A DNA stretch of 5,864 bases from NCBI GenBank assembly GCA_023260315.1, contig JALQVQ010000216.1, forward strand, positions 1 through 5,864, given 5' to 3'. Of the stretch, positions 3,250 through 4,369 are shown in pieces. The translations under genes and the position numbers were made by a program. Within the stretch, counting starts at the first letter, position 1; each line of letters begins with the position of its first letter. This DNA comes from Burkholderiaceae bacterium (GTDB taxonomy: Bacteria > Pseudomonadota > Gammaproteobacteria > Burkholderiales > Burkholderiaceae_C). Below the pieces are notes generated by a model, which was not told the DNA's origin, searched no databases, and saw nothing but the letters and a program-made list of their open reading frames with translations.

Positions 3250-3527
3250 CAGGGGATCAACACCACTTTCGCGGATGCCACCTTACCCGCTGCAATCTCA
3301 CTGAACGCGAGTGCGCCATCTTTTAGCGGACGTTCCTCGACCCAGTTGAGGTCGCCAAAGACGCCTTCTTCCAGTTGGCGTACGGTCTCGCGCAGATCGG
3401 CTTGCGTGTAGGTATAAGCGCCCAACAAGGTGACCTCGGCCAGCGTGAGCTTTCGCATGTCAATCTCACTGGCCCAGTCTTGTAAACCAATGTGCATGAT
3501 GACGCCGCCCGGTTTGACCGCTTCAAA
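3249..3527 (-). CDS. C-terminal fragment of a zinc-type medium-chain (MDR) alcohol dehydrogenase, 5' part missing
   Basis: Only the last 92 residues or so of a medium-chain dehydrogenase/reductase are present, from [16 protein letters not shown] to the end AKVVLIP. In this family that is the end of the nucleotide-binding Rossmann domain plus the C-terminal return strand to the catalytic domain. The pattern of GG(V/I)xxxIGL, LTLxEVxxxGxYxYT, the [14 protein letters not shown] segment and a final KVVLxP is typical of threonine dehydrogenase-like or sorbitol dehydrogenase-like members. The N-terminal GroES-like domain, zinc ligands and GxGxxG cofactor loop, which would make up over 200 residues, are absent because upstream sequence is rpoC. 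The open frame does continue upstream to an ATG at 3656, but those residues are an out-of-frame reading of rpoC and do not resemble a dehydrogenase. The stop overlaps the yeiH start by one base, so this end of the gene appears native. Substrate is unknown. Confidence 0.85.
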
Positions 3528-4369
3528 CGGTTGTTCCGGTTGATCACGCGGCGATACAGGTCGTTGAGGTCGGAGGTCGCAAAGCGGCCACCATCCAGCG
3601 GAACCAGCGGACGCAGTTCTGGCGGGATCACAGGGATCACGGTGAGGATCATCCACTCAGGACGGTTGCCCGACTCGAGGAAGTTCTCAACGATTTTCAG
3701 ACGCTTGATGATCTTTTTAGGCTTCAGTTCGCCAGTGGCTTCCTTCAGCTCTTCGCGCAGCTGCTCTGCAGTTGCTTCGAGGTCAATCATCGACAGCATT
3801 TCGCGGATCGCTTCGGCACCGATGTTCGCTTGGAAAGCGTCCATGCCGTAGGTGTCCTGTGCGTCGAGGAATTCTTCCTCGGTCATCAACTGGCCGTAGG
3901 TCAAGTCGGTCAAACCCGGCTCGATCACAACGTAGTTTTCAAAGTACAGAATCCGTTCCAGATCACGGAGCGTCATGTCGAGCATGAGGCCGATCCGCGA
4001 CGGGAGCGATTTCAAGAACCAGATGTGTGCAACAGGCGAGGCCAGTTCGATGTGGCCCATACGCTCGCGGCGCACTTTCTGGAGCGTAACTTCAACACCA
4101 CATTTTTCGCAGACAACGCCGCGATACTTCATGCGCTTATATTTACCGCAAAGGCATTCGTAGTCTTTGATCGGACCAAAGATACGGGCACAGAAGAGAC
4201 CGTCGCGTTCTGGTTTGAACGTGCGGTAGTTGATGGTTTCTGGTTTCTTAATCTCACCGAACGACCACGACAGGATACGCTCAGGCGATGCGAGCGAGAC
4301 TTTGATCTCGTCGAATGCCTTAGCGGGCGTGAGCGGGTTGAACGGGTTGTTGGTCAGTTCCTGGTTCAT
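3323..4369 (-). CDS. rpoC: DNA-directed RNA polymerase beta' subunit, truncated after residue 284 and followed by an out-of-frame tail
   Basis: The beta' subunit of RNA polymerase holds the catalytic magnesium and most of the clamp. Residues 1-284 (4369 to about 3518) are a textbook N-terminus: [19 protein letters not shown] at 27-45, [17 protein letters not shown] at 50-66, and the zinc site C72-x-C74-x12-C87-x2-C90 in [21 protein letters not shown]. They continue with [20 protein letters not shown] at 255-274 and NRNNRLKR at 277-284. The match stops inside the clamp-helix coiled coil that binds sigma region 2. The frame then runs 64 unrelated residues to a stop at 3323, reading the dehydrogenase out of frame. 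About 1100 residues are missing, including NADFDGD, so this product could not be a working subunit. The start is supported by AAGGA at 4380-4376, six bases upstream, and by the rpoB stop 50 bases before. The sequence looks Rhodobacterales-like. Confidence 0.93.
3519..3530. other. Chimeric junction between rpoC and the dehydrogenase gene (microhomology seam)
   Basis: On the minus strand, 3530-3519 reads CCGTTTGAAGCG. In the rpoC frame this lies in the conserved NNRLKR (residues 279-284); one base off it gives the first dehydrogenase codons F-E-A of FEAVKPGG. Upstream everything is clean RpoC. Downstream the rpoC frame yields SNRAASSC, unlike any RpoC, where Leu-Leu or Leu-Ile would be expected. 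The bases TTTGAAGCG at least could have belonged to either parent, which is why the breakpoint cannot be placed exactly. No insertion sequence, duplication or recombination site is seen around it. Confidence 0.85.

Follow-up and report, generated by a model that had tools for sequence, protein, structure and literature searches.

In the available portion of a benchmark study, a chimeric contig is one whose non-overlapping parts match different species (PMC8171044). The corresponding part of the GUNC report treats misassembled chimeric contigs as a recognised error of genome bins, rarer than mis-binning (PMC8201837). Chimeras made by phi29 during multiple displacement amplification have also been described, and the abstract of that work places complementary stretches of 2-21 bases at more than 70% of the junctions (PMC1855051). 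Here we describe contig C202 of the metagenome-derived bin G000 (317 contigs with a total of 1,594,888 bases; completeness 66.94%, contamination 3.03%). The contig was analysed whole, as a window of 5,864 bases. It is confirmed that its rpoC gene breaks at a seam and runs into the 3' end of a dehydrogenase gene. The two halves of the window have different class affinities, the seam between them is sharp, rpoC is intact in a near-parental genome, and the join is absent from everything searched. The contig is most likely an artefactual join, at a short overlap, of alphaproteobacterial rpoBC and genes whose closest kin found are in the bin's own family.

Break of rpoC at the seam

The rpoC part of the window (3519..4369, minus strand) comprises codons 1-283 and the start of codon 284. 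The frame, which starts at 4369, matches PF04997 at residues 17-289 and TIGR02386 at residues 21-288. A sequence-only reading of this DNA had placed the end of RpoC at NRNNRLKR (residues 277-284), with a dehydrogenase following in another frame, and the present analysis confirms it. At 3519 the rpoC homology gives way to the dehydrogenase 3' end, with the strand unchanged and the frame different. The next 64 residues of the fused frame, which ends at a stop at 3323, are unlike RpoC and result from out-of-frame reading of the dehydrogenase DNA. In all 120 protein matches listed for the fused frame the alignment stops at residue 284 or earlier, and a short-query search with the 64-residue tail returned only the eight RpoC residues shared before the tail and one match with an E-value of 5.6. 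A functional RpoC has the catalytic and C-terminal domains (PF04998 and the domains between), and the window has PF04997 only. The catalytic domain is lost, as the sequence-only reading had claimed.

The highest-scoring match to the fused frame, P0121, is 72% identical, and its alignment likewise ends at residue 284. This public RpoC fragment of 576 residues carries residues 119-284 in duplicate, and the second copy accounts for its top score. It is perhaps another damaged record.

The seam occupies 12 bases (3519..3530, minus strand), which in gene direction read CCGTTTGAAGCG. All 12 are identical in rpoC of G583, an alphaproteobacterial genome described below; the match stops exactly at 3519 and the sequences differ from 3518 on. 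The earlier proposal that the seam can be read in both genes holds for all 12 bases on the rpoC side. On the dehydrogenase side, where the frame reads P-F-E-A, it holds firmly for GCG only, since firm alignment begins at that codon (3519-3521) and continues onward. F-E-A stands at this position in at least seven of the 120 dehydrogenase relatives listed, making TTT GAA plausible as dehydrogenase codons, and the residue before it is mostly alanine in the relatives and proline in the window. With GCG firm, TTT GAA plausible and this difference at the preceding residue, the two parents likely share an overlap of 9-12 bases, a length that is not proven. In a random join with equal base frequencies, an overlap of at least 9 bases has a probability of about 3e-5 and one of at least 6 bases about 1.3e-3.

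When positions 3200-4400 were used as a query, 55 of 59 relatives matched and none spanned the seam, so that the boundary is not a matter of chance. Matches on the rpoC side begin at window positions 3518-3533 (a few shorter pieces begin further in), and those on the dehydrogenase side stop at 3517 or earlier. Dehydrogenase relatives extend beyond the seam position. A 39-base word across the seam had no match in viral contigs. The join was therefore absent from the other assemblies among the relatives, from the listed proteins and from the viral contigs searched, and the affinity switches sharply at a point where the parental rpoC continues intact in G583.

Origin of the right half

Bases 3519-5864 (2,346 bases) align with rpoBC of G583 at 97.8% identity, without gaps and in the same gene order, and the encoded RpoC (283 residues) and RpoB (480 residues) are both 99.6% identical. 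The rpoB 3' part (4420..5864, minus strand), which is truncated by the contig end, has the same alphaproteobacterial source as the rpoC part. Of the 51 base differences from G583, 46 fall at third codon positions, a pattern that resembles natural variation and not sequencing error. In G583 rpoC is intact, with 1,409 open codons past the break point of the window and with PF04998 present. G583 belongs to Rhodobacteraceae-like Alphaproteobacteria and is related to the bin only at the level of the phylum, the two being members of different classes.

A search of 299 genomes drawn from across the phylum, the bin itself included, gave as the 14 best after the window the 14 genomes of the family f69 in this draw, at 76-82%, with the bin's own family far lower (for example 69% in G147, and 71% over a part in G120). 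Among 394 genomes of f69, a draw from a larger group, G583 reached 98% and the next best 83%. The best RpoC matches are 94-96% identical and come from Rhodobacteraceae-type genera (Nioella, Jannaschia, Roseicyclus, Yoonia and others), Nioella being placed in Rhodobacteraceae-type Alphaproteobacteria by its lineage. All 80 RpoC loci among the matches listed are alphaproteobacterial by title, bare genus names being assigned to that class. A tree built from 30 RpoC fragments, which included 15 named sequences hand-picked from these 80 and left out the host-genus genome G001, its best piece being too short, pairs the window with G583 at a support of 0.905. Five host-genus sequences split off from the window with a support of 1.000.

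Compared with the window, six rpoBC loci of the host genus show 68-70% identity in RpoC (in G001 over a 175-residue piece only) and 57-66% in RpoB. Five of them are 78-97% identical among themselves over 2,258-2,373 bases, whereas the window aligns with these five over no more than 982-1,273 bases, with an identity of 76-79%, and G583 behaves alike. As the host-genus loci are close to each other and the window and G583 are equally distant from them, rpoBC of the window is not the host genus's own gene. Judged from these matches and the tree, the right half comes from a Rhodobacteraceae-like alphaproteobacterium.

Origin of the left half

On the minus strand, the window reads rpoB 3' end, rpoC 5' end, dehydrogenase 3' end, yeiH, a TctC-type gene and a TctA-type gene. 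The dehydrogenase part (3249..3530, minus strand) is the 3' end of a zinc-type (MDR) alcohol dehydrogenase gene whose 5' part is missing. Its match to PF00107 (E 1e-4, 22.7 bits) lies under the Pfam cut-off of 31.8 and that to NF006940 AdhP (E 1.2e-5) far under the cut-off of that model, so that it is recognised as a dehydrogenase chiefly by its 57-72% amino-acid identity to the dehydrogenases of relatives. A complete MDR enzyme has an N-terminal GroES-like domain (PF08240) and a whole nucleotide-binding domain. Only the end of PF00107 is in the window; full-length relatives have PF08240. The best of 120 proteins listed is 74% identical to the window's tail, and the dehydrogenase parent was not found among them.

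The dehydrogenase stop overlaps by one base with the start of yeiH (2206..3249, minus strand), which encodes a membrane protein of the YeiH family (PF03601) 85% identical to that of the same-genus genome G007. Further along the same strand, a TctC-type solute-binding protein (1190..2143) and a TctA-type membrane protein (3..1166, truncated by the contig end) were identified. In the same-family genome G115 these are 83% (TctC) and 88% (TctA) identical, and in the same-family genome G073 79% and 88%. The last 48 dehydrogenase residues are 92% identical to a stretch of the same-genus genome G001. At the DNA level the left half was searched for in the bin's family (150 genomes drawn from a larger group), its genus and 13 chosen genomes; it is matched in part by 47 of 149 family members and four of nine further members of the genus. 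In G583 and eight f69 relatives, six of the nine hold fragments of 41-100 bases at 71-88%, and three hold nothing. Named relatives among the matches listed for the dehydrogenase of the same-genus genome G009 include a Burkholderiaceae bacterium and Rubrivivax, and one is labelled Gammaproteobacteria. Among the 120 matches listed for YeiH in a search of all proteins, the named relatives below the four closest belong to beta- and gammaproteobacterial genera. Among the genomes searched, the closest kin of bases 1 to about 3530 lie in the bin's own family, which is likely the betaproteobacterial Burkholderiaceae.

Several side observations concern these genes. The TctC and TctA genes (window 3-2143) are 23 bases apart, and a separate TctB frame is absent between them. 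A second YeiH-family gene of the bin (G000:C188:1466-2381; L033, L052) is 68% identical to that of the window, in both DNA and protein. The stretch in G001 (L041:4158-4301) is a 48-codon remnant of the same dehydrogenase 3' end, not embedded in any dehydrogenase frame of greater length; in this sister species the gene has decayed. On the same locus (L041:648-2842), a frame presumably of the form II RuBisCO type stands beside what we take to be a MoxR/CbbQ-like ATPase.

Content of the bin

The sequence-only reading had proposed looking in the same assembly for an intact rpoC and for the 5' portion that the dehydrogenase lacks, and neither was found in the bin. The C-terminal domain of RpoC, PF04998, was not found there, and it was found in all 14 control genomes and in G583, G001 and G007. 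Nor did the bin yield a second rpoC N-terminal domain, or further G583-type rpoBC pieces except a 61-base match at 80%. For the 5' part of the dehydrogenase, the search of the bin brought up nothing beyond the tail already in the window and a different gene at 29%. Since the bin is 67% complete, these absences are weak evidence when taken alone.

Alternative explanations

A real cross-class horizontal transfer would have inserted an alphaproteobacterial rpoBC fragment by illegitimate recombination, at a microhomology of 9-12 bases, into a dehydrogenase gene of the host. The short shared stretch at the seam does resemble microhomology joins, at least 9 bases being expected by chance at only about 3e-5, and since no rpoC of its own was found in the bin, the organism may or may not have a copy elsewhere. 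However, both ends of the piece lie inside essential genes, one at the seam and the other at the contig end. Its identity to G583, which belongs to another class, is 97.8%, in the exact gene order of that genome, and it was seen in none of the relatives searched. A mobile-element gene was not seen among the window frames or in a Pfam scan of six proteins. This agrees with the earlier statement that no mobile element lies at the join, and insertion by such an element was rejected on the same grounds. A real transfer between classes is very unlikely, and the particular event in which the bin's organism took up the fragment by microhomology joining, a very recent cross-class transfer of a part of the transcription machinery, is given a still smaller chance.

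The sequence-only reading had offered a true rearrangement next to another, intact rpoBC as its alternative. In that case a single bacterium would have had its rpoC disrupted and fused to a distant locus. A G+C content of 0.51-0.58 along the window, similar in both halves, and their presence on one contig would fit such an event. Against it stand the different class affinities of the halves in the phylum search and the RpoC tree, the lack of the left half, beyond fragments of up to 100 bases, in G583 and its eight relatives, and the failure to find another rpoC N- or C-terminal domain in the bin (67% complete). The rearrangement was rejected on the class split and on the missing left half, and we allow it next to no probability. 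A natural fusion or shortened RpoC, kept and working, deserves equally little credence: the frame does stay open for 64 codons beyond the seam, but this tail is dehydrogenase DNA in the wrong frame, RpoC lacks its catalytic part, and no alignment among the 120 protein matches listed goes past residue 284. A fusion protein was rejected on these matches and on the tail search.

An interspecies chimeric contig thus explains the window best, and the preference of the sequence-only reading for a misassembled contig or a chimeric amplification product is strengthened by the finding that the two sides belong to different classes. Two different bacteria would have been present in one sample, and DNA of both would have become linked where they share a few bases, likely 9-12. 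The link may have been made by software that closed a gap on this short overlap, or it may stem from a chimeric molecule of the library where coverage was thin, and either would account for the present data. The whole contig would then probably have been sorted into the bin of the left-half organism.

Some points weigh against an interspecies chimera. Short-read assembly usually works with k-mers longer than 9-12 bases, so that a k-mer repeat by itself does not account for the join, and gap closing or a chimeric molecule has to be invoked. G583, being 2.2% divergent, is not the parent strain of the right half itself. The exact parent of the left half was not found, the best DNA identity being 72-80% over parts, and the assignment of this half to Burkholderiaceae leans on a small number of dehydrogenase relatives that carry names. 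The sequence comparisons do not disprove the join at the level of the molecule, and chimerism was examined for one contig of the bin's 317 only.

Implications

In all likelihood the break in rpoC stems from the assembly or the library and does not reflect a gene broken in nature or any other biological feature. The window holds no new biology, and the class split of its two halves is the new observation beyond the break in rpoC. Through this contig, alphaproteobacterial rpoB and rpoC enter a bin that belongs to a different class, which is a warning about data hygiene. Both genes are common phylogenetic markers, and trees, contamination estimates and transfer screens that use the bin's copies would therefore be misled.

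Comparison with known chimeras

As in the template-switching chimeras of phi29 (PMC1855051), the window is joined at a short shared stretch. It differs from them in joining two organisms, and amplification by phi29 is a candidate only. The window resembles interspecies chimeric contigs more fully: its parts match different species, and it shows no difference in kind from the contigs covered by the available portions of the two reports (PMC8171044, PMC8201837). What sets it apart from these is the existence of a parent-like genome with 97.8% identity, which allows the rpoC side of the seam to be located to the single base.
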